From positions 1-50,965 of the forward strand of contig CAIKAW010000004.1 in NCBI GenBank assembly GCA_903825575.1: a DNA stretch of 50,965 nucleotides. Direction: 5' to 3'. Shown here piece after piece: positions 18,763 through 32,830 of this stretch; positions within the stretch are counted from its first letter, which is position 1; each line of letters begins with the position of its first letter. The notes below the pieces were generated by a model, which did not search any database, was not told the origin of the DNA, and saw nothing but the letters and a program-made list of their open reading frames with translations. This stretch comes from an uncultured bacterium (GTDB lineage Bacteria; Actinomycetota; Actinomycetes; S36-B12; CAIKAW01). The position numbers were made by a program, and so were the translations under genes.

Positions 18763-18791
18763 CTCAAGATTGTGGTTCTTCCGGTCGATGC
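18763..18791 (+). promoter_or_regulatory. Sigma-28-like promoter P1 (DUF4388 gene)
   Basis: CTCAAG (18763-18768), 15 nt, GTCGATGC (18784-18791). It ends 46 nt before the preferred GTG start at 18837. One of six sites in the pilus locus with consensus CTCAAG-N15-GCCGA. Confidence 0.65.
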
Positions 18792-18836
18792 CCCAAGCGG
18801 GCCCGCTTCGTCGTGTGCGGTCCGTTGGGGAGTGTC

Positions 18837-19778
18837 GTGAATCTAGCCGGGTCGCTCGAGGCGTTTGCGCTATCCGATGTGCTGACGTTGCTTGCATCGA
18901 CCGGTAAATCTGGTCGGTTGTCGTTAACTCGATTGGCCGAAGGCGAGAAGTGTTCCGGCTTCGTAGTGTTGGCCGGCGGTCGCCTCGTGGCTGCCAGCGG
19001 GGATATTCGCCGGTCCGCCCGGCTACGCCGACTCATCGGACACGGCGATGATTCCTTCTGGGCGGATGCGCATGAGTGGCCCGATGAGCAGGGGCTTGTT
19101 GCGGCGCTAGTTGGAGCCGGTTGGGTTACCGAACAGGAACTGGCTCACATCGGGGTGCGAGTCACGACCGATGCGCTTATCGAATTGCTCGCCTGGCCGA
19201 AAGGACGTTTTGAGTTCGAGGTATGCGAACCGGCGATTACAGACTTCATCACCGATCTTGGGGTCTCAGAGGTTCTGAATGAAGGCCACCGTAGGGATAC
19301 CACTCGCGCCGGAACGGATTCACTTCGGCCTAGGGCTGATTCGGTGCTGGCTCTGCCACTAACGATTGTCGCCGCCGCACAGATCGAACGCGATGACTGG
19401 CCGCTGTTGGCCCTACTCGATGGCATCCGGACGGCCGGGGAGGTAGCTGAACTCTGCGGAAGGGAAACAGCGTCTGTGCTTGACCGGTTCGCTTCGCTAG
19501 TGGGAGCTGGTCTGGTGCGCGAATACCCAGCGGCAGATGGACCAACAAAGCGTTTACTGGCCCGACTTCGACGGGTTGCCGAATTCGAACAACGCAACAA
19601 TGTTCTGGATCGGGCCGACGTCGAACAGATCGCTCGCCCGACCCCCGCGGCACTCTCATTGGCCCCAGAATCGGACTTCGCCGCCGGGTGGCAGCCATCG
19701 GATGCGCTGGCCGATCTGGCCCTGCCCGTTGATCGCGAGGCGGTTATGCGACTGATAGTTGGAGTCCAGGGACTCTAA
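18837..19778 (+). CDS. DUF4388 domain protein, putative pilus regulator
   Basis: A 313-residue protein. The N-terminal half (LAGSLEAFALSDVLTLL, GKSGRLSLTR, VVLAGGRLVAASGD) matches DUF4388, a domain often attached to response regulators. This is followed by ALIELLAWPKGRFEFEV and a second winged-helix-like module (WPLLALLDGIRTAGEVAEL, LVGAGLVREYP). No receiver domain is present. Function is not established; its place immediately upstream of pilB and behind the same promoter type as the pilus genes suggests a role in T4P control. I prefer the GTG at 18837 with GGGGAG upstream over the GTG at 18813. Confidence 0.8.
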   Translation: MNLAGSLEAFALSDVLTLLASTGKSGRLSLTRLAEGEKCSGFVVLAGGRLVAASGDIRRSARLRRLIGHGDDSFWADAHEWPDEQGLVAALVGAGWVTEQELAHIGVRVTTDALIELLAWPKGRFEFEVCEPAITDFITDLGVSEVLNEGHRRDTTRAGTDSLRPRADSVLALPLTIVAAAQIERDDWPLLALLDGIRTAGEVAELCGRETASVLDRFASLVGAGLVREYPAADGPTKRLLARLRRVAEFEQRNNVLDRADVEQIARPTPAALSLAPESDFAAGWQPSDALADLALPVDREAVMRLIVGVQGL

Positions 19779-19798
19779 GGACCGTTCACCCGGATGGC

Positions 19799-19827
19799 CT
19801 ACAGCCCAAAGCTCTTTGTGCCGATGC
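19799..19827 (+). promoter_or_regulatory. Sigma-28-like promoter P2 (pilB)
   Basis: CTACAG (19799-19804), 15 nt, GCCGATGC (19820-19827), ending 53 nt before the pilB start. The -10 half is a full match to GCCGAT; the -35 half matches the locus consensus at 4 of 6 positions. Confidence 0.6.
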
Positions 19828-19879
19828 GCTCAGGAGTGAGGGCTTGCGAGGGCGGTCCTAGCAACGGGCAGGAGGCGAA

Positions 19880-21541
19880 GTGAAGCAACTAGGCGACATC
19901 CTGCTGGAGAGTCGGATGATCTCCGAGGACCAACTGTCCGTGGCCCTTTCGGAGCAGGCGCAGGTTGGTCGCAGTCTCGGCCGGGTCTTAGTCGACTCCG
20001 GCGTCTTGTCCGAACCTCAACTGGTTGCAGCTCTGGCGGCTCAGATCGGCTTGCGATTCGTTGATCTGTCTGACACGCCCATCGATGGATCTGCAATCGG
20101 CCGCGTGCCTGGACCAGTTTGCCGCCGACACACTGCCGTACCTATCGGAGTCGAAGATGGGCGGCTGGTCCTGGCGATGGCCGATCCGGCGAATGTGTTC
20201 GCCATCGACGACATCAGGTCGGTCTCGGGGATGGATGTGCGTCCAGTCGTGGCGACCCGATCTGACGTGCTTGCCGCCATTGAGCGTTGTTATCGGGCAG
20301 ATGACGCCCTCGATGACCTGAGCTTGGCCCTGGAGACTGAAGAGGAAGACGATCTCTCGCAGGTAAAGGAGATCATCGAAGACGCCCCGATCGTGAAGTT
20401 TGTCAATTTGCTCATTAGTCAGGCAATCGCCGACCGGGCATCGGATATCCATCTGGAGCCAACCGAATTCGACCTGAGGGTTCGTTTCCGGATTGATGGT
20501 GTGCTCCACGAAGTCATGAGATCACCAAAGGCGATTCAGTCTGGGGTAATCAGCCGGCTGAAGATCATGGCTGAGATCAATATTGCCGAACGTCGAATAC
20601 CGCAGGACGGTCGTCTTTCGGTCTCGGCACAGGGGCGCAAGGTGGACCTGCGCGTGGCCACGCTGCCGACCGTGTGGGGCGAGAAGGTAGTTATGCGAAT
20701 CCTCGATACCTCTACCGCCCGCCTCGACCTGGCTGACCTCGGATTTAGCGAGTACAACTTTCGCCGTTACTCGGAGAGTTACCTGAAGCCCTACGGGATG
20801 ATTCTGGTAACTGGCCCCACTGGATCGGGCAAGTCGACGACCCTCTACGCCACCTTGAACATCGTGAACCGCGCCGAGGTCAACATCATCACGGTCGAGG
20901 ACCCGGTGGAATACCGGCTGGCTGGAATCAATCAGGTGCAGACGAACCCGAAGGCCGGTTTGACATTCTCGGCGGCTTTGCGGAGCATCCTGCGCTCGGA
21001 CCCAGATGTGGTTCTAATCGGTGAAATTCGTGACCATGAAACAGCCCAGATCGCGGTCGAAGCAGCACTTACCGGCCACTTGGTCCTTTCAACCCTGCAC
21101 ACAAACGACGCCCCCAGTGCGGTCACGCGCCTAACCGAAATGGGGATTGAGCCATTCTTAGTGGGGTCGGCTATCGACTGTGTTCTGGCGCAACGACTGG
21201 CACGCAAACTATGCCTGAAATGCCGTGAGCCTTATGAGCCCAGCATTGAGGCCCTGCGCACCGCCAAATTCAACTGGGACGAGGAACAACCCCCTCCGAC
21301 CATCTATCGCGCCGGTGGATGCCCTGCTTGTTCTCAAACCGGCTATCACGGTCGGATGGCCCTGCACGAAGTCATGCCGGTATCTGAAGAAATCGAGCGG
21401 CTGGCGGTTGAGCGTGCGTCGTCGTCCGCAATCAATTCCGTGGCTCGAGAACAGGGAATGATCTCCCTGAGGGAAGATGGGATGGCTAAGGTGAAGGCGG
21501 GTTTGACCTCGCTGGATGAGGTTCTGCGTGTTGTTGTGTGA
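19880..21541 (+). CDS. pilB: PilB, type IV pilus assembly ATPase
   Basis: A 553-residue GspE/PilB ATPase that powers pilin polymerisation at the cytoplasmic face. The N-terminus (residues 3-55) has two 24-residue repeats separated by exactly 5 residues, the layout of the MshEN c-di-GMP-binding domain. Then come Walker A GPTGSGKSTTLYATL, the Asp box EDPVEYRLAG, Walker B DPDVVLIGEIRD, the His box TGHLVLSTLHTNDAPSA, and a four-cysteine zinc module (CLKC...CPAC). The GTG start has GGAGG upstream. The stop overlaps a possible GTG for pilT. Confidence 0.95.
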   Translation: MKQLGDILLESRMISEDQLSVALSEQAQVGRSLGRVLVDSGVLSEPQLVAALAAQIGLRFVDLSDTPIDGSAIGRVPGPVCRRHTAVPIGVEDGRLVLAMADPANVFAIDDIRSVSGMDVRPVVATRSDVLAAIERCYRADDALDDLSLALETEEEDDLSQVKEIIEDAPIVKFVNLLISQAIADRASDIHLEPTEFDLRVRFRIDGVLHEVMRSPKAIQSGVISRLKIMAEINIAERRIPQDGRLSVSAQGRKVDLRVATLPTVWGEKVVMRILDTSTARLDLADLGFSEYNFRRYSESYLKPYGMILVTGPTGSGKSTTLYATLNIVNRAEVNIITVEDPVEYRLAGINQVQTNPKAGLTFSAALRSILRSDPDVVLIGEIRDHETAQIAVEAALTGHLVLSTLHTNDAPSAVTRLTEMGIEPFLVGSAIDCVLAQRLARKLCLKCREPYEPSIEALRTAKFNWDEEQPPPTIYRAGGCPACSQTGYHGRMALHEVMPVSEEIERLAVERASSSAINSVAREQGMISLREDGMAKVKAGLTSLDEVLRVVV

Positions 21542-21549
21542 CCCGTGTC

Positions 21550-21578
21550 CTCAAGGGGGGCGTGGGATCGACCGAAGA
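21550..21578 (+). promoter_or_regulatory. Sigma-28-like promoter P3 (pilT)
   Basis: CTCAAG (21550-21555), 15 nt, ACCGAAGA (21571-21578), ending 46 nt before the ATG at 21625. It lies in the segment that a longer pilT frame would translate, and so supports the shorter pilT. Confidence 0.6.
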
Positions 21579-21624
21579 GGTCATGGGGGACGCTGCTCGA
21601 AACAGCGTTTGGGACGGAGGAGCG

Positions 21625-22773
21625 ATGGAGAGCGTGGGTACTGAGGTTATGGCGGATGCGCAAATTAGCCTCGGGCGAGTGAGCACTGAGGATGTGCTGC
21701 GCCCGAGTGATGTTTCGCTGGCCGCCGTCCTAGAGCAGCTGCTTGAATTGCGTGGATCTGATCTTCACCTGACTGCCGGAGCTCGACCGATGGTTCGGGT
21801 CGACGGTTCCCTTCAGGCGCTTGAGGGGTACCCCGTAATGACCCCGCCGGAGATTCAACGCATTCTTTACAGCGCCATAACCCAAAATCAGCGTGAGCGC
21901 TTTGAAGAGGCCCTCGAGCTCGATTTCTCATACAGCTTGCCCGGGCGCTCGCGTTTCCGTGTCAACATCTACCGGCAGCGTGATGCCCTTGGTGCAGCGT
22001 TCCGAGTGATCCCATTTGAGATTTCATCGCTGGAGACCCTGGGTATCCCTCCGGTAATCGCCAATTTTGCGATGCTGCCTCGCGGCTTCGTTCTGGTCAC
22101 CGGGCCAACGGGGTCAGGGAAGTCGACGACGTTGGCCTCTTTGATTGACGTGGCGAACCGGAACCGCCACGACCACATAATGACGGTCGAAGACCCAATC
22201 GAATTCCTTCACAAACATAAGTCTTGCCTCGTGAACCAACGCGAGGTCGGCGAAGACACCCGCACTTTTGGGGATGCCCTCAAGCACGTCCTGCGCCAAG
22301 ACCCAGACATCATCTTGGTTGGCGAGATGCGTGACCTCGAGACAATCTCAGTTGCCCTCACTGCCGCCGAAACCGGGCACTTAGTCTTTGCAACTCTGCA
22401 CACGGCCGATGCCGCTCAGACAGTTGACCGAATCATTGACGTCTTCCCGCCGTATCAGCAGCAACAGGTACGTCAGCAGCTGGCTGGATCTCTACAGGGG
22501 GTTGTTTCTCAGACCTTGTGTAAGACCGCCGATGCAACCGGACGCGTCGTCGCTACTGAGGTTATGCAAGCCACCTCGGCAATCCGAAACCTGATTCGCG
22601 AAGGTAAAACGCATCAGATCTATTCAGCGATGCAGTCTGGCGCGCAGCACGGAATGCACACCATGGACCAAAGCTTGGCTGAGTTAGTTCGGAACCGACG
22701 AATCACTTACGAGACCGGACTGGTCAAGTGCCATCACGTCGAAGATTTCAATCGGTTGTGCGGACGACTGTAA
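21625..22773 (+). CDS. pilT: PilT, type IV pilus retraction ATPase
   Basis: A 382-residue PilT. It has the N-terminal PAS-like part (LRGSDLHLTAGARPMVRVDG), Walker A GPTGSGKSTTLASL, EDPIEFLHKH, Walker B DPDIILVGEMRD, the His box TGHLVFATLHTADA, and AIRNLIREGKTHQI, the C-terminal motif that distinguishes PilT from PilB. It depolymerises pili and so gives twitching or DNA-uptake capacity. I chose the ATG at 21625 because GGAGGAG lies just upstream; a GTG at 21538 overlapping pilB would add 29 non-conserved residues. Confidence 0.94.
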   Translation: MESVGTEVMADAQISLGRVSTEDVLRPSDVSLAAVLEQLLELRGSDLHLTAGARPMVRVDGSLQALEGYPVMTPPEIQRILYSAITQNQRERFEEALELDFSYSLPGRSRFRVNIYRQRDALGAAFRVIPFEISSLETLGIPPVIANFAMLPRGFVLVTGPTGSGKSTTLASLIDVANRNRHDHIMTVEDPIEFLHKHKSCLVNQREVGEDTRTFGDALKHVLRQDPDIILVGEMRDLETISVALTAAETGHLVFATLHTADAAQTVDRIIDVFPPYQQQQVRQQLAGSLQGVVSQTLCKTADATGRVVATEVMQATSAIRNLIREGKTHQIYSAMQSGAQHGMHTMDQSLAELVRNRRITYETGLVKCHHVEDFNRLCGRL

Positions 22774-22783
22774 TGGAGGAGTC

Positions 22784-24004
22784 ATGGCAACGCTGACCTA
22801 CGAATACCAGGTCCGGGATCGTGCCGGGAAGATCATTCGCGGTCACATCGACGCTGATTCGCCGGCGGCGGTTGCCACTCGTTTGAAGAGCATGGGCTAT
22901 GCCCCCATTAACATTGCAGCCAGCAACTCAGGTCTGAAGCGCGATCTAAGTTTGCCTTCGTTCGGTAAGCGCGTGAAGCTTAAGGATTTGGCGATCATGT
23001 CGCGGCAATTCGCCACGATGATCAATTCCGGACTCTCGCTCCTTCGGGCTTTGAACATTCTTTCGGAACAGACCGAGAATCCTGCCTTGGCAAAAGTTCT
23101 CGGCGAAGTACGGAACGAAGTCGAATCCGGTAGTGCGCTTTCGACCGCGATGGCTCGGCAGGCCCAAGTCTTCCCGCCGTTAATGGTGAATATGACCCGC
23201 GCTGGTGAGGTTGGCGGGTTCCTGGATCAGGTGCTGCTGCAGATTGCCATCAACTATGAATCCGAAGTTCGCCTCCGCGGCAAGGTAAAAGCGGCGATGA
23301 CTTACCCAGTCGTGGTGTTCTTTATCGCGATCTTTGCAGTTATCGGAATGCTGCTCTTCATCGTTCCTACCTTCACAGGTCTGTTCAAATCTCTGCACGG
23401 CAGCCTTCCAGCTCCGACCCAGTTTCTCGTTATCCTCTCGAGTATTTTGAGGTCTTGGTTCCCGGTCATGATCATTGCGTGCATCGCTGTGGCCGTACTT
23501 TGGTCTAGGTACCGGCACCATGATCGAGTACGAAACTTTGTTGACCCATTCAAATTGCGGCTGCCAATATTTGGTTCACTTTTCCAGAAGATCGCGCTTT
23601 CACGATTCACCCGCAATCTTGGAACGATGATCAAATCAGGAGTACCTATCCTGCAGGCGCTAGATATTGTTGCTGACACGTCCGGCAATGTCGTTATTGC
23701 TCGGGCTTCTCGCGATATCCAGCAAAGTGTGCGGACCGGTGAAAGCCTGTCGGCGCCGTTGGCCCGCCACGCAGTTTTTCCACCCATGGTCGTGCAAATG
23801 CTTGCTGTGGGCGAAGACACAGGGAATCTCGACGAAATGCTGTTCAAGATTTCCGAGTTCTACGACCAAGAGGTCGAGGCGACCACCGAGTCGCTAACGG
23901 CCCTCATCGAGCCGTTGATGATCGCATTCCTAGGCGGAATCGTCGGATCCATGATCGTCGCCCTATATATGCCCATCTTCAAGATCTTTGACCTCATCAA
24001 GTAA
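22784..24004 (+). CDS. pilC: PilC, type IV pilus inner-membrane platform protein
   Basis: A 406-residue GspF/PilC protein with two homologous cytoplasmic helical domains. The first (LAIMSRQFATMINSGLSLLRAL, about 65-185) and second (LSRFTRNLGTMIKSGVPILQAL, about 265-385) surround membrane helices near 170-190, 220-240 and 375-400. PilC couples the PilB and PilT motors to the growing pilus base. The ATG has GGAGG upstream and lies 10 bp after pilT, so the two are co-transcribed. Confidence 0.95.
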   Translation: MATLTYEYQVRDRAGKIIRGHIDADSPAAVATRLKSMGYAPINIAASNSGLKRDLSLPSFGKRVKLKDLAIMSRQFATMINSGLSLLRALNILSEQTENPALAKVLGEVRNEVESGSALSTAMARQAQVFPPLMVNMTRAGEVGGFLDQVLLQIAINYESEVRLRGKVKAAMTYPVVVFFIAIFAVIGMLLFIVPTFTGLFKSLHGSLPAPTQFLVILSSILRSWFPVMIIACIAVAVLWSRYRHHDRVRNFVDPFKLRLPIFGSLFQKIALSRFTRNLGTMIKSGVPILQALDIVADTSGNVVIARASRDIQQSVRTGESLSAPLARHAVFPPMVVQMLAVGEDTGNLDEMLFKISEFYDQEVEATTESLTALIEPLMIAFLGGIVGSMIVALYMPIFKIFDLIK

Positions 24005-24041
24005 CGGCAACCAAATACTTCACTCTTCGCATACGTCTCGC

Positions 24042-24047
24042 TACTAT
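24042..24047 (+). promoter_or_regulatory. -10 box (TACTAT) upstream of the unknown membrane protein
   Basis: TACTAT lies 6 nt before an ATG at 24054 that opens a 7-codon frame, and 27 nt before the GTG of the membrane protein. The spacing matches the leaderless promoters seen elsewhere in this window. Confidence 0.45.
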
Positions 24048-24053
24048 TCGAAT

Positions 24054-24077
24054 ATGACGGCTAAGGGTGATGGGTGA
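24054..24077 (+). CDS. Possible 7-codon leaderless leader peptide (MTAKGDG)
   Basis: The ATG at 24054 begins a frame reading MTAKGDG and a TGA at 24075-24077. The stop overlaps the GTG start (24074) of the next gene as GTGA, the same overlap used between real genes here. A TACTAT box 6 nt upstream would make the ATG the 5' end of the transcript. Expression is not proven; it may simply deliver ribosomes to the downstream gene. Confidence 0.35.
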   Translation: MTAKGDG

Positions 24078-25156
24078 ATCCAATCGGGGTCTGGTGGCGG
24101 ATCCTGAAATGGCTCAGATCAGCCGTAGCGGCCCTGTTGGTAATTGTCGGTGCGCTACTTGTCCCAGTGGGAGTCCTGGGATATTGGGCGGACCAGACCG
24201 TAACGAGCCCAGCCCGGTTTGAGGCGACCATCGGCCCGCTCGTCACAATTCCGGCGGTTCAGGATCAAGTCGCTGCCGGTTTGACGAGCATCGTCAAGGA
24301 TGCTTGGGATCAGCGAACCTTGACCTCCTTGCTGCCAAAGGCTTCCGCGAAGGCCGTAGCGGCCCGCGAAGCCGCAATTCAGAAGGTATTGCCGCTAGCC
24401 ATGCGGAAAGTGGCAGCTAGCCCCGAATTCGGGGGAATTTGGAGGTCCCTGACCGGCGCAGTCCAAACTCGGGTGTTGCATCTGGTGAGCCAGCCAACAA
24501 CGGTAACCGCCCAGGCAGGCCAAGTGAGCATCGACATCATGCCCTTGTATCTCCTAATGCGTCGGCAAGTCGTTCTGGCCGGATTCCCGGAACTAGCCTC
24601 AGTTTCAGGTCCAAAAGACCACGTGAAAATGATCGTGAAGGCGGATGCGCTAGATCGGATTCAAAAGGTGTACCGCATTGCCAATCCGATTGGCCATTGG
24701 CTCATAGTGCTCGCCGGCCTCATGCTTTTGGCCGCTGTTGCTATCTCGCGGCGTAGGCGTCGGATGGTGTTGATTGTTGGGCTATTGCTCGTAGTGGGCT
24801 CGGGTGCCTTAATTGTGACCAAGTCCGTGGGAGCGGCGCGCTTTGATAAAGCCTTGGCCACTACCAAGTTGGCCAGCGCCGGTCCGGATATCTATCGCCA
24901 AGTCACCGGGTACCTATCCACCCTGACCTATGGCCTGCTGTTCCTGGGGTTTGTGATTTCGGCCCTTGGATTGTTGGTGGTCCTAAGGCGGCGTGGGCGA
25001 CCGGAAAAGCTACGAAGAAGTAGCGCCGAACGCTCCCAACCCGCCGGTGAGCAGGAGGCTATTTCTGAACCGCAGCTAGCAACCGCGGGAGTCCCGGCCA
25101 TGGCCAGGGAAACGCCAAATTGGCCAGTCAGTTCCAAGGGTGAGGTCAGCGATTAG
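24074..25156 (+). CDS. Uncharacterised actinobacterial membrane protein
   Basis: A 360-residue protein of unknown function. An N-terminal membrane helix (about 14-38) is followed by an extracytoplasmic domain with VTSPARFEATIGPLVTIPAVQDQVA, three further helices (about residues 213-231, 236-255, 282-305), and a charged, Pro/Ala-rich cytoplasmic tail (about 310-360). Similar proteins with a GYWADQTV-type start occur singly in Actinomycetota. It lies between pilC and pilA, but it has a housekeeping-type -10 box rather than the pilus promoter type, so a pilus role is only a possibility. Confidence 0.7.
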   Translation: MNPIGVWWRILKWLRSAVAALLVIVGALLVPVGVLGYWADQTVTSPARFEATIGPLVTIPAVQDQVAAGLTSIVKDAWDQRTLTSLLPKASAKAVAAREAAIQKVLPLAMRKVAASPEFGGIWRSLTGAVQTRVLHLVSQPTTVTAQAGQVSIDIMPLYLLMRRQVVLAGFPELASVSGPKDHVKMIVKADALDRIQKVYRIANPIGHWLIVLAGLMLLAAVAISRRRRRMVLIVGLLLVVGSGALIVTKSVGAARFDKALATTKLASAGPDIYRQVTGYLSTLTYGLLFLGFVISALGLLVVLRRRGRPEKLRRSSAERSQPAGEQEAISEPQLATAGVPAMARETPNWPVSSKGEVSD

Positions 25157-25189
25157 TCGCGGACGAGGAAAACCTGCCCCAAATTGGTC

Positions 25190-25218
25190 CTAAAGTTCCG
25201 GACCAGCCGTGACGAAAG
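25190..25218 (+). promoter_or_regulatory. Sigma-28-like promoter P4 (pilA)
   Basis: CTAAAG (25190-25195), 15 nt, GACGAAAG (25211-25218), ending 51 nt before the pilA start. Both halves carry one or two mismatches to the locus consensus, but order, spacing and distance to the gene are the same. Confidence 0.55.
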
Positions 25219-25269
25219 GTAGTTGTCATCGGCAAGCGTCGGGGAACCGGCGCCACAGAGGGGAACATT

Positions 25270-25749
25270 ATGAGCTCTCGTATTCGTCGGGCGATGGACA
25301 ACAATGAGGGTGGCTTCACCCTCATCGAACTCCTTGTCGTCATGATCATCATCGGCATCCTTGCAGCGATCGCAATCCCGACCTTCCTGTCGCAGCGACA
25401 GAATGGTTACAAGTCTGCTGTTAAGAGCGACTTGCGCAACGCAGCCACAGCGGTTGAGTCCGCTGCGGTAGATAACAATGGCGATTACACCAAGGTCCTC
25501 GGCACTGGCGCCACGCCGGCTGGAACTGCTCCGGCCGCCGGGGTATCGCTCGCCGCTGCAGCTCCCGGCCTGACCTTCTCGTCTTCCCAGGGCGTCACCA
25601 TGTTCGCAGAGCAGGCGACGTCGACGGCTTTCTGCCTAGTCGGTCAGAACACCTCCGCTAGCGGAAACTGGTTCGTTTACTCGAAGGCCAAGAATGGCCT
25701 GCAGAGCACCGTCTACACGACTGAGGCGCTAGCAGCCGCAGGTTGCTAA
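25270..25749 (+). CDS. pilA: PilA, major type IV pilin (prepilin)
   Basis: A 159-residue prepilin. The basic leader MSSRIRRAMDNNEGG is cut after Gly15, giving a mature N-terminus FTLIELLVVMIIIGI with the conserved Glu5 (Glu20 of the precursor) and a 25-residue hydrophobic helix. The C-terminal domain has Cys122 and Cys159, which can form the disulfide-bounded D-region. The leader is processed by PilD and the mature protein is polymerised by PilB and PilC. The GAGGGGA site precedes the ATG. A strong terminator follows directly, suggesting a separate abundant transcript. Confidence 0.95.
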   Translation: MSSRIRRAMDNNEGGFTLIELLVVMIIIGILAAIAIPTFLSQRQNGYKSAVKSDLRNAATAVESAAVDNNGDYTKVLGTGATPAGTAPAAGVSLAAAAPGLTFSSSQGVTMFAEQATSTAFCLVGQNTSASGNWFVYSKAKNGLQSTVYTTEALAAAGC

Positions 25750-25764
25750 AGCACTTAGGCATTG

Positions 25765-25807
25765 ACCGGGGGCGACTCGAAAGAGTCGCCCCCGGTCCTA
25801 TTTCTTT
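25765..25807 (+). terminator. Strong rho-independent terminator after pilA
   Basis: A perfect 14-bp stem, ACCGGGGGCGACTC (25765-25778) with its complement (25783-25796), closed by a GAAA tetraloop and followed by CCTATTTCTTTT. It lies 15 bp after the pilA stop and before the minor pilin genes. Confidence 0.92.
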
Positions 25808-25840
25808 TGCGGCAAAAGATCGGTGGGTGGCACCTTCGCG

Positions 25841-25869
25841 CTCAAGGTTTACGGCTGGCGCGCCGACAC
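25841..25869 (+). promoter_or_regulatory. Sigma-28-like promoter P5 (minor pilin operon)
   Basis: CTCAAG (25841-25846), 15 nt, GCCGACAC (25862-25869). It is one of the best matches in the window and lies between the pilA terminator and the minor pilin operon, ending 21 nt before the ATG at 25891. Confidence 0.7.
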
Positions 25870-25890
25870 TTTGATGAGTTGGGAGGGCGA

Positions 25891-27183
25891 ATGATTCTCG
25901 CGAACCGTCGCGGTCAAGACGATGCAGGCTTTGGTTTGATTGAGCTTGTCGTCGCATTAACCATCATGTCGATCGTCATGGCGGGCATCGCCTACGGAAT
26001 CATGACCGAACTCAGTCTTACGGCGGATTCAAGAGGCCGTGAAGTTGGCGCCAATTTGGCCTCGCAATCAATCGATGCAGCTCGAGCAGTAGCGAATTTG
26101 AGTACCTTGCAGGCGGCCACCTGGACTTCCAAAGTAAATGGAGTCACCTACACAGTGCTTCAGACCGTGACAGATTATTCGGCCGGGGCCGCCTCCCCTT
26201 GTGACGGATCGAGCGCTTCGGCGATCGTCTATAAGCGGGTAAGCATCCGAGTGTCGTGGCCGAACATGATTGCCGACCCCGTCATGGCAAGCACTCTGAT
26301 TGCCCCGAGTACCAGCAGTTTCAATCCGGCCCTAGGGAACATTGGTGTAAAGGTGCTGGATGCCGGCGCAAACCCGGTCTACGGCGCTTTGGTAAACATC
26401 ACCAACGGGGCGACTTCCTATTCCTCGTACAGCGACGTTGATGGGTGTGCCTTCTTTGACGCGCTGACTCCAGGCACCTTCACCGTTACTGGGCAGTTGG
26501 CTGGCTACGTCACCACTGATGGGACTTCTGCCCCCTCGACAACCGCGTCGGTAAACCAGGGGAGTACTACCCGGGTTGCTTTCAACTTGGACTCGGCTGC
26601 CGAACTGGACGTGTTCGTGCCAGACGAGACCTATGCGGCCCCAGCGAACATGCCGTTGACCATCGGGAATAGCAGTTTGCAGCCCACGGGCAGCCGATTG
26701 GAGCCCGGAACGGGACACCGGAGAGCTCTTGTCGATCTATTCCCATTTGCATCGGGCTACACGCTGTGGGCCGGATCGTGTTCCGACGCGGATCCAGCGG
26801 GCCAAATCATGGTGAATGGCAGCGCTATCGGCCCGTATTACGCCGGTGCCGTCCGTGATCCGGCGACTTCGGTGACGACCGGATTCGGGCAGGCATCAGT
26901 AACCATGGCGAAAGTCACCGTGAACCTGCAGACGAATGCCGGATTGGCGGTAAGCGGCAGCCAAATTTCCGCAACGCACGTCGTGGCGGGCGGCGGGGTC
27001 GATCCCGGATGCCCAGCAGGCGAAGTTTGGGTGCTGGGTGTTACGAACCAGTCGGGAAGTATCAGCGCTTCGCTGCCTTGGGGCGATTGGCAGTTTCAGG
27101 CGGCAGGTACTACCGCTCCAGCCGTAATCAATATTTTGGCTCCGGCCGCGAATGTCTACGCCATTGGGTTGCGGACCCCATGA
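25891..27183 (+). CDS. PilV-like minor prepilin with beta-sandwich carboxypeptidase-regulatory-like domain
   Basis: A 430-residue protein with a class III signal peptide: leader to Gly13, then FGLIELVVALTIMSIVMAG with Glu at mature position 5. Far longer than ordinary minor pilins. Residues about 149-210 (VKVLDAGANPVYGALVNITNG, SDVDGCAFFDALTPGTFTV) resemble a carboxypeptidase regulatory-like or Cna-B-type beta-sandwich, and a second such module seems to lie near the C-terminus (VNLQTNAGLAVSG). This suggests a surface-exposed or adhesive minor pilin. The ATG at 25891 has GGAGGG upstream; the frame is open further upstream but runs through the pilA terminator. The stop overlaps the next gene (ATGA). 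Confidence 0.82.
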   Translation: MILANRRGQDDAGFGLIELVVALTIMSIVMAGIAYGIMTELSLTADSRGREVGANLASQSIDAARAVANLSTLQAATWTSKVNGVTYTVLQTVTDYSAGAASPCDGSSASAIVYKRVSIRVSWPNMIADPVMASTLIAPSTSSFNPALGNIGVKVLDAGANPVYGALVNITNGATSYSSYSDVDGCAFFDALTPGTFTVTGQLAGYVTTDGTSAPSTTASVNQGSTTRVAFNLDSAAELDVFVPDETYAAPANMPLTIGNSSLQPTGSRLEPGTGHRRALVDLFPFASGYTLWAGSCSDADPAGQIMVNGSAIGPYYAGAVRDPATSVTTGFGQASVTMAKVTVNLQTNAGLAVSGSQISATHVVAGGGVDPGCPAGEVWVLGVTNQSGSISASLPWGDWQFQAAGTTAPAVINILAPAANVYAIGLRTP

Positions 27184-27824
27184 ATCGCCGTGATTCGAAG
27201 GGCGCCCAGGCGGGATTCACACTGACTGAACTCTTGGTTTCTATGGTTCTGCTGCTCATTGTTTCCGGGATGCTAATAACTAGCGTCGTGGCGATTGACC
27301 GAGCCGTCGTGAAGGACCAAGCTGCTGGCGCGAACTTGGACATTGCGCGAGTAGGCATGAATCGCATGACGAATAACGTTCGAGCCGGCATGGAGATCCA
27401 GCAGTTATCGGGCCCGAACCTTCCTGCCTTCGCGGCGATTGCCCCAGAGTCGCTAACTGTGTACGCGAGTCTTGGAGCAGTTCCAACCAAGGTGACCTAC
27501 TCGGTGGACTCGCAACGGCGCCTGATTGAGACCAAGGTCCCCGGGACGGCCAATAGCGGTCCCTATTGGACTTTCACCGCCACACCCGTAGTTACGATCG
27601 TTGGTAGCCAAATTCCGGCCGGGACTGCATCGCCGTTGTTCACCTTCAATGACTCGACGGGCGCCCCGCTAACCGTCCAGACGTCGACAGATTCGACCGT
27701 ACTTTCAACGATAAAGAGCGTGACAATCTCTCTTACCGTCAACACTAACCCCGCCCAAGGGTTCGCCAATACGACGTTGACGAACGCTGTGGTCCTGCCG
27801 AATCTCGGGGTGGCTAAACGATGA
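27180..27824 (+). CDS. PilW-like minor prepilin
   Basis: A 214-residue protein: leader MNRRDSKGAQAG, then FTLTELLVSMVLLLIVSGM with Glu at mature position 5. The region after the helix (DIARVGMNRMTNNVRAG) resembles PilW/GspJ-type minor pilins, and the rest is beta-rich. The ATG overlaps the upstream stop (ATGA), and its stop overlaps the next gene in the same way, so the three minor pilins are made from one message. An in-frame upstream extension to 27009 lies inside the previous gene and is not likely translated. Confidence 0.83.
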   Translation: MNRRDSKGAQAGFTLTELLVSMVLLLIVSGMLITSVVAIDRAVVKDQAAGANLDIARVGMNRMTNNVRAGMEIQQLSGPNLPAFAAIAPESLTVYASLGAVPTKVTYSVDSQRRLIETKVPGTANSGPYWTFTATPVVTIVGSQIPAGTASPLFTFNDSTGAPLTVQTSTDSTVLSTIKSVTISLTVNTNPAQGFANTTLTNAVVLPNLGVAKR

Positions 27825-29506
27825 ACGGGGTTCGAAAGCTCGCAAATCGAGTCGGCCGAGGCGGCGGCACGAATGACAGCGGCCTGGCGTTAGTGGTTGT
27901 TCTAGCCGTTACGACCATGCTTACTTTGTTGTTGGTGGCAGCAACCGGATTCGCTGTCAACCAGATGAAGCAGACGCGCTCCGACCAAGATTGGCAGGCC
28001 GCACTTGCCGCAGCCGAAGGTGGGGTGGACGAATACGTCTCGCGACTGAATGCTGATGGAGGCTACTGGCGCTATGGCAATCCAGGAAACAGCTACTCGT
28101 CGGGTAGCTCTGTTACCTTGCCTACCGGGGCCACCGTCAACTCTGCCTTCAGCGGGTGGACCACATTGCCTGGCGTCACAAATTCGTACTTCCGGTATGA
28201 CGTGGACACCAGTCAATACCTGACGACCGGCATTATTAAATTGCGGTCAAGCGGCAAGGTTGGCGTTCGCATTCGCACAATTGAGGTGCAGCTAAAACGC
28301 CGCTCGTTCATTGATTTCCTGTACTTCACAAACTATGAGGAGAAGGATCCGGCTGCGTACTCTTACCCAACGGATTCCTACACGCCGGCCCAAGCAGCGG
28401 TGTTCTGTGCCAATAAGCACCACTATGAGGGTCGTGTCGATGCCGTAAACGGCGTATCGACCGGCTGCTCGGTCATCAACTTCGGCGGCGGCGACAAGAT
28501 CAATGGGCCGATGCATACGAATGACTCGTTCTACGTATGCGGGAATGTCACATTCGCTAGCAACGTAACTACTTCCTACAGCCCGGCGTCTGGTTCCCGC
28601 TACATCGTAAATACTGGCTGCGGAACGGCGACGCCCTCCTTTGCTCACACCGGTGACCCCAGCTATGCGGCACAGTTGGTCATGCCTCCGAGTAACACGT
28701 CCATTCGTCAGCAAGTGGATCCGACTTACACCAGCCCTCCGGGATGCCTATACACCGGCCCAACTCGGATTGTTTTGAACTCGAACAAGACCATGGCTGT
28801 CACGAGCCCTTGGACTAAGAATGGTGGCGCCGCATATTGCGGGGTTGGAGCCTCGGTACCGATTCCGACCAACGGAGTGGTCTACGTCCAGAATGTGCCG
28901 GCCACTGCTGATGCCTACACCACAGGCACGCCCGCGAATGGAACCTGTGCAAACGATTACGGTCTCGGCTTCCCGATTTCTGGTGACATCACTGCGTATA
29001 ACTGCAAGAACGGTGATGTATTCATTGAGGGCACCTTGAGCGGCCAACTGACGGTTGCGGCAGAGGACAACATAGATATCACGTGGAATATCACGTACGC
29101 AGGCGGCGCGAGCGGGACCGACCTGCTGGGTCTAGTTGCTAACAACTACGTGGAGATCTATCACCCAGTCAAGCTCGTCAGCAGCACCTACTCCAACCTA
29201 AATGTGACCGGCCAGGTCACGGCGTTCACAAATCCCACGATCTGGGCGGCGATCCTTTCGGTGCAGCACTCGTTCCGGGTCCAGAACTACGACAAGGGCT
29301 CCACCTTGGGCACGCTGAATATCAATGGGGCAATCGCTCAGAATTACCGAGGCATTGTGGGCATCATCGGAACGAGCGGATATGTCAAGAATTACGTCTA
29401 TGACAGTCGTCTCAAGTACGCCTCTCCGCCGCACTTCCTGGATCCGGTGCAATCCGCGTTCGGCCCCAGCCTTTGGACCGAACTGACGCCGGCCTACACC
29501 TCCTGA
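27821..29506 (+). CDS. Large PilX-like prepilin without Glu5
   Basis: A 561-residue protein with a polar leader ending at Gly21, then LALVVVLAVTTMLTLLLVAATG. Mature position 5 is Val, not Glu. The segment after the helix (DWQAALAAAEGGVDEYVSRLN) is the PilX N-terminal-type signature. The rest is a large cysteine-containing, Ser/Thr/Gly/Asn-rich region with GGGDKINGPMHTNDSFYVCGN and many short beta strands. By analogy with GspK of type II secretion, which also lacks Glu5 and is large, it may cap the pilus tip. Last gene of the minor pilin operon. Confidence 0.8.
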   Translation: MNGVRKLANRVGRGGGTNDSGLALVVVLAVTTMLTLLLVAATGFAVNQMKQTRSDQDWQAALAAAEGGVDEYVSRLNADGGYWRYGNPGNSYSSGSSVTLPTGATVNSAFSGWTTLPGVTNSYFRYDVDTSQYLTTGIIKLRSSGKVGVRIRTIEVQLKRRSFIDFLYFTNYEEKDPAAYSYPTDSYTPAQAAVFCANKHHYEGRVDAVNGVSTGCSVINFGGGDKINGPMHTNDSFYVCGNVTFASNVTTSYSPASGSRYIVNTGCGTATPSFAHTGDPSYAAQLVMPPSNTSIRQQVDPTYTSPPGCLYTGPTRIVLNSNKTMAVTSPWTKNGGAAYCGVGASVPIPTNGVVYVQNVPATADAYTTGTPANGTCANDYGLGFPISGDITAYNCKNGDVFIEGTLSGQLTVAAEDNIDITWNITYAGGASGTDLLGLVANNYVEIYHPVKLVSSTYSNLNVTGQVTAFTNPTIWAAILSVQHSFRVQNYDKGSTLGTLNINGAIAQNYRGIVGIIGTSGYVKNYVYDSRLKYASPPHFLDPVQSAFGPSLWTELTPAYTS

Positions 29507-29511
29507 TGTTT

Positions 29512-29540
29512 CTCAAGCTTGGGTAGCACCCGTAGGCTGC
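29512..29540 (+). promoter_or_regulatory. pilD promoter: leaderless -10 box with CTCAAG upstream
   Basis: TAGGCT (29533-29538) lies 6 nt before the pilD GTG, as in the other leaderless promoters. CTCAAG (29512-29517) lies exactly 15 nt before it, the position it has in the sigma-28-like sites, but GCCGA is absent. Confidence 0.5.
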
Positions 29541-29544
29541 CCGC

Positions 29545-30333
29545 GTGAATCTGACCTATCTGGCCGTGGGCCTGGCAGTGCTTCTTGGGCTAGCGATCGG
29601 TTCCTTCCTCAACGTCGTGATTTGGCGGGTTCCGCGCGGGGAAAGCGTGGTCCGGCCGCCGAGCCACTGTCCGGGCTGTGACCGCGAAATCCTTGGTCGC
29701 GACAACATCCCGGTTGTTTCTTGGTTGTTGTTGCGAGGCAAGTGTCGTAGTTGTGGGAACCCGATCAGCGGTCGTTACCCCTCCGTGGAGTTGCTCACCG
29801 CTGTCATCTTTGGGGTTCTAGCAGTGAAATTCGGCTGGAGTCTGCAACTTCTGGCCTTTGAGTATCTGGCGGCAGCGACTATCGCGCTGTCATTTATCGA
29901 CCTGGACACCAAGCGGCTACCAGATGTGATCGTTTTGCCTTCATATTTTGTTGGGACACTTCTACTGGCCATCGCTGCCGGGACGTCCGGGGAATGGCAC
30001 CGGCTGCTCGGGGCTGGTTTGGGCGCCCTGGCCCTGTTCGGTTTCTATTTCAGTACGTGGTTCGTCTTCCCGCGCGGGATGGGATTCGGCGATGTAAAGC
30101 TTGCTGGGGTGCTTGGGCTCTATCTTGGCTGGCTGGGCTGGGGACCGGTTGTCGTTGGGGCCTTCTCAGGCTTCCTGATCGGGGCCACTGCAGGCGTGCT
30201 TCTCATGGCTTTCAGCCGGGCGGGCCGCAAGTCGGCAATTCCATTTGGCCCGGCCATGTGTGTTGGCACCCTGACCGGCATCCTTATCGGCCAGCCAATC
30301 GCCACCTGGTATCTCACCCTTCTGACGGGCTGA
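29545..30333 (+). CDS. pilD: PilD, prepilin peptidase
   Basis: A 262-residue A24-family aspartic peptidase. The N-terminal methyltransferase part has paired cysteines (CPGC, CRSC) and SFLNVVIWRVPRGES; the peptidase part has the two catalytic aspartates in SFIDLDTKRLPD and MGFGDVKLAG. About eight membrane helices. It cleaves the leaders of PilA and the three minor prepilins after glycine and methylates the new N-terminus. The GTG start has no Shine-Dalgarno but has TAGGCT 6 nt upstream, so the message is probably leaderless. Confidence 0.94.
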   Translation: MNLTYLAVGLAVLLGLAIGSFLNVVIWRVPRGESVVRPPSHCPGCDREILGRDNIPVVSWLLLRGKCRSCGNPISGRYPSVELLTAVIFGVLAVKFGWSLQLLAFEYLAAATIALSFIDLDTKRLPDVIVLPSYFVGTLLLAIAAGTSGEWHRLLGAGLGALALFGFYFSTWFVFPRGMGFGDVKLAGVLGLYLGWLGWGPVVVGAFSGFLIGATAGVLLMAFSRAGRKSAIPFGPAMCVGTLTGILIGQPIATWYLTLLTG

Positions 30334-30344
30334 TCCCCGGGCCG

Positions 30345-30373
30345 CTCAAGGTTGGGGGCGAAGCGGCCGATCA
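30345..30373 (+). promoter_or_regulatory. Sigma-28-like promoter P6 (pilM-pilN-pilO operon)
   Basis: CTCAAG (30345-30350), 15 nt, GCCGATCA (30366-30373), ending 45 nt before the preferred pilM start. It is the closest match to a FliA/WhiG-type promoter in the window. Confidence 0.72.
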
Positions 30374-30418: not shown

Positions 30419-31483
30419 GTGGCAAGGGAATCGGCAATCGGGTTAGACATAGGTAGCTCGAGTGTGCGCGCCGTCGAACTTTCATTCGGGCGCTCAGGCG
30501 TCACGGTCGAGCGGTTTGGGCAGGTGGCCCTTGCCCAGGGAGCTGTCGTCGACGGAGAAGTCGTCGATCCCGAATCGGTCGCAACGGCAATTCGTTTGCT
30601 CTGGAATCAAGTCAAGTTCAGTAGTAAGCGGGTGGTGCTCGGAGTTGCCAACCAGCGTGTAATCGTCCGTCAGGTTGACCTACCTTGGCTTCCCGAAGCA
30701 GAACTTCGAGCTTCGCTCAAACACTTGGTGAGCGATCTAGTTCCCATGCCAGTCGACGAAGCGGTCTTGGATTTCGTTCCCATCGAAGATTTCGTTGAGG
30801 GCGACGGCGGGCGGTTCGTCCGTGGACTTCTTGTCGCCGCAGCCGAAGAAATGGTCCTAGCGTCCATTGAAGCAGTCAGCCGGGCGGGACTGACCGCGAC
30901 GAGCGTGGACCTTGCGCCGTTCGCCATTTTGCGTTCCTTGGTGCATCGGTCTGATCTTGGCTTAGTTGCTGGACCGGAAGCGATTGTGGATGTAGGCGCC
31001 CGGATCACAAACATCGTCGTGCACGAAGACGGGGTACCACGATTTGTTCGGATTCTGCTAATGGGCGGGCAAGACGTAACCGATGCGCTGAAAGTTCACG
31101 CGGACTTGGACATGGTTGCAGCCGAAGACGCTAAGCGGCGGGTGGGCTTGGGTGGTACAGGTTCGCTCGATGACGCTCAGCTGACTCGAGTGATGATGCC
31201 GGCCGCTGCAGCGCTCGTCGACGAAATTCGTGGCTCGCTGGACTACTACCTGGCAACTGCCGGATCGCGTGACGCCTTAAGTCGGGTCGTAGTCACGGGC
31301 GGTGGGATGCAACTAGACGGATTGGTCGACCGATTGGCCGCTGCTGTCCGGGCTCCCGTGGTCCGCGGATCAGCACTTGAAGGACTGAAATTTGGTCGCA
31401 CAGGTCTTACTCCAGAACAGCTTGAGTTTGTCGCTCCGCTGGTGAGTTTGCCGGTTGGCCTTGCCCTCGGGATGGCGTCATGA
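30419..31483 (+). CDS. pilM: PilM, actin-like type IV pilus assembly protein
   Basis: A 354-residue FtsA/actin-fold protein: AIGLDIGSSSVRAVEL (phosphate 1), VDVGARITNIVVHEDG (phosphate 2) and VVTGGGMQLDGLVDRL (adenosine region). PilM sits on the cytoplasmic face, binds the N-terminal tail of PilN and links the motor to the alignment complex. I prefer the GTG at 30419; a TTG at 30404 is an alternative. The stop overlaps pilN (ATGA). Confidence 0.93.
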   Translation: MARESAIGLDIGSSSVRAVELSFGRSGVTVERFGQVALAQGAVVDGEVVDPESVATAIRLLWNQVKFSSKRVVLGVANQRVIVRQVDLPWLPEAELRASLKHLVSDLVPMPVDEAVLDFVPIEDFVEGDGGRFVRGLLVAAAEEMVLASIEAVSRAGLTATSVDLAPFAILRSLVHRSDLGLVAGPEAIVDVGARITNIVVHEDGVPRFVRILLMGGQDVTDALKVHADLDMVAAEDAKRRVGLGGTGSLDDAQLTRVMMPAAAALVDEIRGSLDYYLATAGSRDALSRVVVTGGGMQLDGLVDRLAAAVRAPVVRGSALEGLKFGRTGLTPEQLEFVAPLVSLPVGLALGMAS

Positions 31484-32181
31484 CAACCGTGGACGTACGA
31501 ACCGAGGTTAATCCAGAAGCGGTGCTGCCACGTGTGAATTTGATCCCCGCGTCGATTCACGAACGGGCCCGGATTGCCCGAACGCGATCTGTGGCGGCTG
31601 CCTTACTTGCGGGATCATTCGTCGTGACCGGCGGTTTGTGGTTGCTCGCACACGCTTCAGTTGCCGATGCTCAAGGTCGAGTTGATCAAGCCAACGCCCA
31701 GAACACGAGTTTGCGTAGCCAGGCGGCCAAGTACGCGGCTGTTCCGCAGGTCCAGGCGCAACTTGCGGCCGCCCAAGCGCAACTGGCTGGGGCGATGGCT
31801 AGCGATATCCGATTCTCATTCCTGCTTAACGATCTGGCGCTTACGATTCCGCGAAGCGTTGTCATAACTCAGCTGACTATCTCAAGTGCACCAGCTGGTA
31901 CCACCGGCGGAGCAGTGAATTCCGGCGCGCTGACCGGACCACTAGCGACGGGGGTCGGGTCGATCACCTTCCAAGGCAAGGCTACCTCGATCAACGCGGT
32001 GGCGGACTGGCTCGATAAGGGCCTAGCCAACTCTCCCGCATATGCAAACCCATTCGTCACAAACGTCGGTAGCGAGAGTGCCGCAACCGGCGCAGGCGGC
32101 GCCGCCACCATCGGGTTCACATCGAGTTTGGTGTTGATGCCCAGCGCTTACTCACACCGCTTCGACCAAGGTGGAAACTGA
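31480..32181 (+). CDS. pilN: PilN, type IV pilus alignment protein
   Basis: A 233-residue bitopic protein. Near the N-terminus VLPRVNLIPASI is the equivalent of the INLLP motif that PilN uses to bind PilM. A membrane helix (about 40-62) is followed by a coiled-coil stretch (ADAQGRVDQANAQNTSLRSQ) and a ferredoxin-like extracytoplasmic domain. The ATG overlaps the pilM stop. It should pair with PilO. Confidence 0.88.
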   Translation: MTTVDVRTEVNPEAVLPRVNLIPASIHERARIARTRSVAAALLAGSFVVTGGLWLLAHASVADAQGRVDQANAQNTSLRSQAAKYAAVPQVQAQLAAAQAQLAGAMASDIRFSFLLNDLALTIPRSVVITQLTISSAPAGTTGGAVNSGALTGPLATGVGSITFQGKATSINAVADWLDKGLANSPAYANPFVTNVGSESAATGAGGAATIGFTSSLVLMPSAYSHRFDQGGN

Positions 32182-32182
32182 C

Positions 32183-32830
32183 ATGAACCGAAGCCGAATC
32201 TGGTTAGCAGGCGGAGCTGCCGTGGCTCTGCTAGCGCTGGTGTTTGGGTGGATGTTCGTCGTCTCCCCGCAACGTGCGAAGGCCGCAGGACTAAATACCC
32301 AAGCCGATCAGATCACGTCAGCCAATGCCTCCTTGGTGACGCAGATAGCGCTTCTCAAGACACAGTTTGCGAGTCTGCCCGCGACTGAAGCAAAACTTGC
32401 TCAGTACTCACAGCGGATCCCGGGGACGCCAGCGCTAGCGGCATTCCTTCGCCTGCTTTCAGCGACTGGCGCGGCCAGTCACGTTTCGATCACCGCAATC
32501 TCGCCGACGAGTTTGACCGCGGTTGCCGGAAAATCGGGCCGGAATCTCATGGCGAGTAACGTAAATATTTCCTTCACTGGGCACTATGCAGCTACCGAGG
32601 CGTTTCTGACTCGGATCGAAGGGTTGCAACGGGCCTTCCTGGTGACAGGGCTTTCGATCTCCAAGGCAGGCGCGGTGACCGCTGGCACCACGACCGGTGG
32701 AGCTGCTGCGGATCCGGATTCGTTACAGGTCACCATCACAGGGCGGATCTTTGTGGCGGTCTCGTCAAACATCCCAGTCACTACTCCCAGCGCAAATCCC
32801 GTATCCGGTTCAAGCGGACAGACTTCCTGA
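32183..32830 (+). CDS. pilO: PilO, type IV pilus alignment protein
   Basis: A 215-residue protein with a short cytoplasmic N-terminus, a membrane helix (about 7-27), a coiled-coil (LNTQADQITSANASLVTQIALLK region) and a PilO-type domain (RIPGTPALAAFLRLLSATGAAS, FTGHYAATEAFLTRIEGLQR). It forms a heterodimer with PilN. I chose the ATG at 32183; a GTG 12 nt upstream overlaps the pilN end and is possible. Confidence 0.86.
   Translation: MNRSRIWLAGGAAVALLALVFGWMFVVSPQRAKAAGLNTQADQITSANASLVTQIALLKTQFASLPATEAKLAQYSQRIPGTPALAAFLRLLSATGAASHVSITAISPTSLTAVAGKSGRNLMASNVNISFTGHYAATEAFLTRIEGLQRAFLVTGLSISKAGAVTAGTTTGGAAADPDSLQVTITGRIFVAVSSNIPVTTPSANPVSGSSGQTS

Follow-up and report, generated by a model that had tools for sequence, protein, structure and literature searches.

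Six copies of a two-block motif, CTCAAG-N15-GCCGA, precede genes of the type IV pilus (T4P) locus of an uncultured actinobacterium (Actinomycetota; Actinomycetes; S36-B12; CAIKAW01). From sequence comparison, we consider it very probable that these six sites, two of them weak, are promoters of the sigma factor WhiG, and that WhiG would be the master switch of the locus. The locus lies in the stretch of 50,965 nucleotides (nt) analysed here, contig CAIKAW010000004.1 of assembly GCA_903825575.1, which we call the window. The window has a GC content of 59% and belongs to a genome (G000) of 2.21 Mb that is 95.4% complete. The original prediction, made from the letters of the window alone, had proposed a single alternative-sigma regulon. 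The checks suggested with it speak for the most part in its favour, and it is supported by the presence of a whiG gene, by the conservation of the motif before pil genes of relatives and by its recovery in a search that was not given the motif. The anti-sigma factor RsiG and the second messenger cyclic di-GMP (c-di-GMP) had not been named.

Six promoter-like sites in the pilus locus

All six sites, at 18763, 19799, 21550, 25190, 25841 and 30345, were found on the plus strand with a spacer of 15 nt each (Table 1). The sites before the minor pilin genes (25841) and pilM (30345) match the motif perfectly, those before the DUF4388 gene (18763) and pilT (21550) have one mismatch, and those before pilB (19799) and pilA (25190) have two. 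As had been predicted, CTCAAG is exact in four of the six. The exceptions are pilB, which has CTACAG, and pilA, where both halves are altered to CTAAAG and GACGA; these two sites were therefore rated weak. With the base that follows the 8-nt -10 block taken as base 1, the start codon opens at base 46 for the DUF4388 gene, 53 for pilB, 47 for pilT, 52 for pilA, 22 for the first minor pilin gene and 46 for pilM, in agreement with the distances given earlier.

The usual spacing of sigma-28 promoters is TAAA-N15-GCCGATAA. The -10 halves of the six sites are all GCCGATAA-like, as the sigma-28/WhiG type requires. In the -35 half, CTCAAG at a spacer of 15 nt, which equals TCAA-N16-GCCGA, stands where the textbook promoter has TAAA-N15; the pilA site reads CTAAAG, and variants with a 14-nt spacer occur among relatives. 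CTCAAG may be a variant of this lineage that departs from the textbook promoter.

Conservation before orthologous pil genes

The upstream regions of orthologous genes were scanned in 80 named loci of relatives that had been found via PilC, the best 80 of 206 confirmed. The scanned region ran from at most 250 nt before the estimated start to 30 nt past it, and one mismatch was allowed. Regions were left out of the count if their alignment began beyond residue 45 or if they had under 200 nt of upstream sequence. With the 15-nt spacer the motif was observed before pilM in 39 of 48 regions, before pilA in 35 of 64, before pilB in 20 of 52, before the first minor pilin gene in 8 of 30 and before pilT in 8 of 71. 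For each of these five genes, none of 500 permuted motifs reached the observed count. With a 14-nt spacer, the motif was present before pilA (13 of 64) and pilB (6 of 52). The control genes aroE (47 regions), yceG (29), aroC (28) and aroK (10) had no match at spacer 15; at spacer 14, one-mismatch matches were present in 4 of the 47 aroE regions. Among the other pil genes, there was no match at spacer 15 for pilN (0/31), pilX (0/31) and mp2 (0/10) and a single one for pilO (1/29), pilD (1/46) and pilC (1/79).

The 15-nt-spacer sites ended 36-97 nt before the start of pilM, 10-94 nt before pilB, 19-76 nt before the minor pilin gene and either 20-93 or 142-209 nt before pilA. For pilT, where the start is least certain, the distance was 67-202 nt. 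Sites were seen in Kineosporia, Kineococcus, Cellulomonas, Actinotalea, Sanguibacter, Nocardioides and many metagenome-assembled genomes.

The motif also emerged unprompted when every combination of a 5-mer with a 4-mer at spacers of 10-20 nt was counted in 265 upstream regions of the five pil genes and in 241 control regions. The commonest pair was TCAAG-N16-CCGA, present in 81 of the 265 regions and outside the top eight of the control regions. The runners-up, TCAAG-N17-CGAT and CTCAA-N17-CCGA with 67 regions each, are the same site. Taken gene by gene, TCAAG-N16-CCGA ranked first for pilM (37/48), the site came third for the minor pilin gene (5/30) and lay outside the top six for pilT, and the searches for pilA and pilB were topped by pairs that apparently overlap the coding start.

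The sigma factor, RsiG and c-di-GMP genes

A FliA/WhiG-type sigma gene, for which the original prediction had suggested a search, is present in the genome (TIGR02479, 283.7 bits against a cut-off of 189.6). It is the sole FliA_WhiG match above the cut-off; the scores of two further sigma genes, 109.7 and 87, lie below it. The protein has regions 2, 3 and 4 (PF04542, PF04539, PF04545). Its nearest solved relative is Streptomyces venezuelae WhiG (6pfj_A, 366 bits, E 1.1e-108), while the best FliA chain, 6pmi_F, gave 175 bits (E 1.7e-50). By score, the sigma factor is thus closer to WhiG than to FliA. Its gene is flanked by open reading frames (ORFs) that resemble, by eye, a XerC/D recombinase and an M23 peptidase.

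Two RsiG homologues were found. The one on contig C13 (L037 1444-1998) has 184 amino acids (aa), scores 102 bits for PF22802 and matches S. venezuelae RsiG (6pfj_T, E 2.2e-33) over residues 18-178; by these scores it appears to be the closer of the two. The one on C55 (L038 1165-1782, minus strand) has 205 aa and 45.3 bits for PF22802, and by eye neither of its c-di-GMP motifs is altered. Several relatives, too, had RsiG matches in more than one location. The genome has eight GGDEF loci. In the stretches scanned, one of the eight, a GGDEF-EAL gene on C74, is preceded by GTCAAG-N14-GCCGATAA about 50 nt before the ORF.

The motif goes with WhiG and RsiG across relatives

Among 119 genomes of the order, 35 had both the WhiG/FliA sigma factor and RsiG over the cut-offs, 3 the sigma factor alone, 5 RsiG alone and 76 neither. 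The sampled genomes of one family, f5, have T4P genes without RsiG over the cut-off. Ten T4P stretches from WhiG-bearing relatives contained 14 perfect sites with the 15-nt spacer and 34 at up to one mismatch (permuted mean 4.9, reached in 0 of 100 permutations). Ten f5 T4P stretches, some of them cut by contig ends, had no perfect site and 5 at up to one mismatch (permuted mean 4.4). Of the WhiG-bearing genomes that could be evaluated, 15 of 18 (14 of 17 when the window's own is left out) had a site upstream of pilM with at most one mismatch, versus 0 of 10 in f5; L158, with 66 nt upstream, and L180, at a contig end, had been dropped before this count. Seven f5 matches at spacer 14 were examined: six were the same coding stretch inside pilB and the seventh (L189 9874) lay at the pilB end. 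Across these relatives, the motif goes with WhiG and RsiG.

Flagellin (PF00669) was present in 7 of the 119 genomes. One f5 genome (G102) had a sub-threshold FliA-type sigma factor together with flagellin.

Matrix ranking and further copies of the motif

A weight matrix was built from 73 distinct sites of relatives and used to score both strands of the window. At spacer 15, the sites at 30345, 18763, 25841 and 21550 ranked first to fourth, 25190 seventh and 19799 eighth. In 20 simulated windows, no site matched the weakest of the top four. These ranks are partly circular, as the training sites had been selected at up to one mismatch to the predicted motif, and therefore we place more weight on the permutation test and on the unprompted pair search. 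The site ranked fifth, at 45161, was set aside; it lies within a 457-aa ORF of the opposite strand. With spacer 14 allowed, a site at 38320 (19.2) scored beside 18763 (19.1), and one at 46972 on the minus strand reached 18.6. The site at 38320, CTCAAG-N14-GTCGATAC, is a CTCAAG copy that the original prediction had not listed; it lies within a 188-aa ORF, 42 nt before an ORF that by eye resembles NusB.

The original prediction had listed four other plus-strand CTCAAG copies in the window as lacking the -10 half. These four do lack GCCGA at the -10 position; the list itself was incomplete, the window having 19 plus-strand copies, 15 of them outside the six sites. Matches at up to three mismatches numbered 255 in the window against a mean of 180 after shuffling, and none of 100 shuffles reached 255, which is a soft excess only.

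Genome-wide, the contexts of all nine perfect sites and of two others among the 125 matches at up to one mismatch were examined, besides selected stretches of 264 kb including overlaps. Four of the nine perfect sites are at the 5' ends of pilus genes: the two in the window, one before a second pilA and one before a second pilT. The second pilA is preceded by CTCAAG-N15-GCCGATAT (C83:2887, L206), with its ATG, by eye, 53 nt downstream of the 8-nt -10 block. Contig C83 also carries a small signal recognition particle RNA and a tRNA. The site C64:9601 is at the 5' end of the second pilT frame, the true start of which is unsettled. Outside the pilus genes, C13:23681 lies 58 nt before the gene of an 879-aa kumamolisin-like protein. 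This gene (L205 6984-9623, minus strand, C13), a possible non-pilus target, has a sub-threshold fibronectin type III match. Four perfect sites were set aside, C13:23409, which sits inside the kumamolisin-like gene, and those on C44, C59 and C100, which have no convincing gene start close downstream.

Two more PilC-like genes, at C53:22751 and C6:8583 (34% and 32% identity), have prepilin-like genes nearby, which points to further systems of the pilus or secretion type. In the stretches scanned, these genes had no motif match above the threshold.

A predicted c-di-GMP riboswitch behind the pilA site of relatives

In Clostridioides difficile, T4P are reportedly controlled by a c-di-GMP riboswitch. 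A similar element was found in relatives where the motif lies about 180-200 nt upstream of pilA. In these pilA leaders, RF01051 (c-di-GMP-I) matched with 49.6-55.5 bits (cut-off 35) in all six loci scanned, which had been picked for their long leaders. A model of our own, built from these six leaders, matched 23 of the 80 loci of relatives, the six included, and 2 of the 20 T4P stretches compared above (L194 and L202, from G015 and G025, both with WhiG and RsiG). In 22 of the 23 loci the distance from the best motif-like site to the start of the riboswitch match is 15-23 nt, usually about 16 nt; in the remaining one it is 40 nt. This motif-like site had no mismatch in 8 loci, one in 9, two in 5 and three in one. 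A WhiG transcript would begin about where the riboswitch match starts, and the promoter is therefore supported from another side. By eye, an outer helix that closes the leader with seven pairs is formed in most of 20 leaders, with only two pairs changed on both sides. No c-di-GMP-I riboswitch was found in the window, its own pilA included, or in the other stretches of this genome that were scanned, which do not cover the whole genome.

The riboswitch control that is suggested for pilA of 23 of the 80 relatives resembles that of pilus genes in C. difficile; unlike there, the actinobacterial leaders carry RF01051 directly after the WhiG-type site. A serious, if tentative, possibility is that the twin-domain RsiG and WhiG form a dedicated pilus switch and that c-di-GMP has two points of action on the pilin gene of many relatives, the WhiG promoter and the riboswitch. 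The riboswitch would then start with the bases at which the WhiG transcript is predicted to begin, and the species of the window would have lost this RNA layer at its own pilA or never have possessed it. If this is true, opposite or matching signs of the two c-di-GMP inputs could give a band-pass or a sharp switch for pilin output, and the tandem of promoter and riboswitch at pilA would clearly exemplify a single messenger that acts on one gene at two steps. Among the open-licence PMC titles and abstract openings listed, we found no description of a c-di-GMP-I riboswitch before actinobacterial pilA, and neither these nor the passages of PMC6916266 consulted mention the promoter-riboswitch tandem, which may be in print.

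WhiG as the predicted switch of the locus

We propose that RNA polymerase with WhiG would read the six sites and turn on the T4P locus as a unit. Transcription would start just downstream of each site, and the promoters would fire together for the DUF4388 gene, pilB, pilT-pilC, pilA, the minor pilin/pilD group and pilM-N-O as predicted operons. The second pilA, the second pilT, the secreted kumamolisin-like protein and one GGDEF-EAL gene would probably be further targets. From the work on Rubrobacter and Streptomyces in passages of PMC8325347, we infer that RsiG with c-di-GMP would hold WhiG inactive at high c-di-GMP and free it as c-di-GMP falls.

Several observations weigh against this proposal. 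The pilA and pilB copies in the window are degenerate, and before the DUF4388 gene the motif was found in only 1 of 13 relatives, a count reached by 29 of 500 permuted motifs. Sites before pilT are few in relatives and lie mostly 128-202 nt upstream, compared with 46 nt in the window. Two genomes, G002 and G017, have WhiG, RsiG and T4P and yet no pilM site, in G058 this site is present only at two mismatches, and the T4P stretches of G017, G002 and G037 have few sites. Family f5 is a single clade, so relatedness is uncontrolled in this comparison, and two of its ten genomes (G028 and G056) have a weaker FliA-type sigma factor over the cut-off, with 236 and 222 bits. In the C13 RsiG, the first c-di-GMP motif, E(X)3S(X)2R(X)3Q/H(X)3D, is intact, and the second ends with Leu for Asp. 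To these points the partial circularity of the matrix ranks must be added. Finally, the genome-wide scan that had been suggested gave a divided answer. Four of the nine perfect sites are at pilus genes, but the excess of matches at up to one mismatch is mild (125 versus 84 for the reversed pattern), and CTCAAG-N14..16-NCCGAT was not enriched in the genome (4 versus 4 in the reversed control). Since the bare pattern is common genome-wide, the case must rest on position and conservation.

These mild counts speak for chance matches picked by eye in a window of this GC content. We regard this as a negligible prospect. For the set as a whole chance is ruled out by the permuted motifs, none of which reached the counts for five genes, by the control genes and by the unprompted search, though single sites could still be chance. 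A narrower alternative is that only the strong sites, those before pilM and the minor pilin genes and perhaps before pilT and the DUF4388 gene, are WhiG promoters, and that the pilA and pilB copies are decayed or fortuitous, with these two genes read from other promoters or from a neighbouring operon. The two mismatches of each copy, their ranks below two other sites of the window and the abundance of one-mismatch matches in the genome all speak for it, and the second pilA on C83 with its perfect site could be the regulated pilin. Yet the pilA and pilB sites are spaced from their start codons just as three of the strong sites are, and the orthologues in relatives carry good sites (35 of 64 and 20 of 52). 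In our judgement this alternative is unlikely.

That the motif is read by a different sigma factor or by a DNA-binding activator, with the presence of WhiG a coincidence, seems improbable to us. When TCAA is set against TAAA, the spacing to GCCGATAA is one base longer than in the sigma-28 promoter, and CTCAAG itself departs from the TAAA given in passages of PMC8325347. On the other hand, the -10 half is the GCCGAT of the family, of which CGAT also emerged unprompted, WhiG is the sole FliA-family sigma factor over the cut-off in the genome, and the motif tracks WhiG and RsiG across relatives. In favour of a flagellar FliA regulon that also covers pili stands the promoter specificity common to FliA and WhiG (passages of PMC8325347). 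This reading we hold to be very improbable, as the sigma factor is nearer to WhiG and the 95.4% complete genome had no match to flagellin, the only flagellar gene searched. For the lack of a flagellin match, the link to motile actinomycetes made in the original prediction does not apply here in the flagellar sense.

Comparison with known systems

A system of this kind is already known. In Rubrobacter radiotolerans and R. xylanophilus, the T4P genes are under WhiG-RsiG-(c-di-GMP) control, as passages of PMC8325347 describe. The T4P cluster of R. radiotolerans has three WhiG-type promoters with mapped transcript starts for nine pil genes and that of R. xylanophilus two predicted ones for 13 pil genes; WhiG-type promoters also precede diguanylate cyclase/phosphodiesterase genes in Rubrobacter, and a second RsiG copy was found in only 1 of 134 genomes (passages of PMC8325347). 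The locus in the window shares with Rubrobacter the FliA-family sigma factor WhiG, the anti-sigma factor RsiG and flagellar-type promoters within the T4P cluster. It differs in having six sites in one cluster, with the consensus CTCAAG-N15-GCCGA instead of TAAA / GCCGATAA, a twin-domain RsiG where Rubrobacter has a single-motif one, and two RsiG homologues.

According to the same source (PMC8325347, in part), WhiG-like sigma factors transcribe the genes for T4P and flagella in Actinoplanes, with A. missouriensis zoospores as the case in point. Actinoplanes has flagella and, in the parts of that paper used here, no RsiG, whereas our genome has RsiG and no flagellin match. The twin-domain RsiG and WhiG of Streptomyces (structure 6pfj) are the closest solved relatives of the two proteins; there the switch governs sporulation (passages of PMC8325347), and here the sites are at pilus genes. 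The present lineage is a further one with this kind of system and shows more sites, a -35 half of variant form, an RsiG with twin domains and a second RsiG gene. As a prediction, WhiG-type control of T4P now reaches beyond Rubrobacter and Actinoplanes into a wide range of actinobacteria, among them named genera in which the link between c-di-GMP, WhiG and pili can be approached, and the results provide a usable consensus for finding the regulon. The twin-domain RsiG goes with pili here, which is relevant to the history of the RsiG-WhiG switch as it shifted between pili and sporulation.

Genes of the pilus locus

Table 1. Promoter-like sites and genes of the type IV pilus locus (window coordinates) and RF01051 matches in pilA leaders of relatives (locus coordinates)
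Feature	Coordinates	Strand	Particulars
WhiG/sigma-28-like promoter (predicted) before DUF4388 gene	18763..18791	+	CTCAAG-N15-GTCGATGC; GTG start 18837; matrix score 19.1
Weak promoter-like site before pilB	19799..19827	+	CTACAG-N15-GCCGATGC; GTG start 19880; score 11.6, rank 8 at spacer 15
Promoter-like site before pilT	21550..21578	+	CTCAAG-N15-ACCGAAGA; ATG 21625; score 18.7
Weak promoter-like site before pilA	25190..25218	+	CTAAAG-N15-GACGAAAG; ATG 25270; score 12.0, rank 7 at spacer 15
Promoter-like site before minor pilin genes	25841..25869	+	CTCAAG-N15-GCCGACAC; ATG 25891; perfect; score 18.7
Promoter-like site before pilM	30345..30373	+	CTCAAG-N15-GCCGATCA; GTG 30419; perfect; score 21.3, rank 1
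DUF4388 gene	18837..19778	+	PF14332, 69.2 bits; listed ORF starts 18813
pilB, extension ATPase with MshEN domain	19880..21541	+	PF00437, PF05157
pilT, retraction ATPase	21625..22773	+	PF00437; mechanical ORF starts 21538
pilC, platform protein	22784..24004	+	PF00482
pilA, major pilin	25270..25749	+	PF07963
Minor pilin with carboxypeptidase-regulatory-like domain	25891..27183	+	PF07963, PF13620; mechanical ORF starts 25762
Second minor pilin	27009..27824	+	PF07963 at residues 66-89; mechanical ORF, true start probably later
PilX-like protein	27821..29506	+	PF14341, 25.6 bits (cut-off 25.5)
pilD, prepilin peptidase	29545..30333	+	PF06750, PF01478
pilM	30419..31483	+	PF11104; mechanical ORF starts 30404
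pilN	31480..32181	+	PF05137, 22.4 bits (below cut-off 22.8)
pilO	32171..32830	+	PF04350
RF01051 match, L041	8007-8113
RF01051 match, L046	11315-11414
RF01051 match, L052	11441-11540
RF01051 match, L053	11390-11492
RF01051 match, L057	5056-5160
RF01051 match, L060	11283-11379

The T4P locus is flanked by yceG-aroE on one side and aroC-aroK-aroB on the other. Between pilC and pilA, at 24074-25156, the window encodes a 360-aa protein with a sub-threshold Pfam match only; a tblastn search of the 80 loci of relatives and the window gave one record, taken as the window itself. Through the MshEN domain of PilB, c-di-GMP may possibly also act on the extension ATPase.

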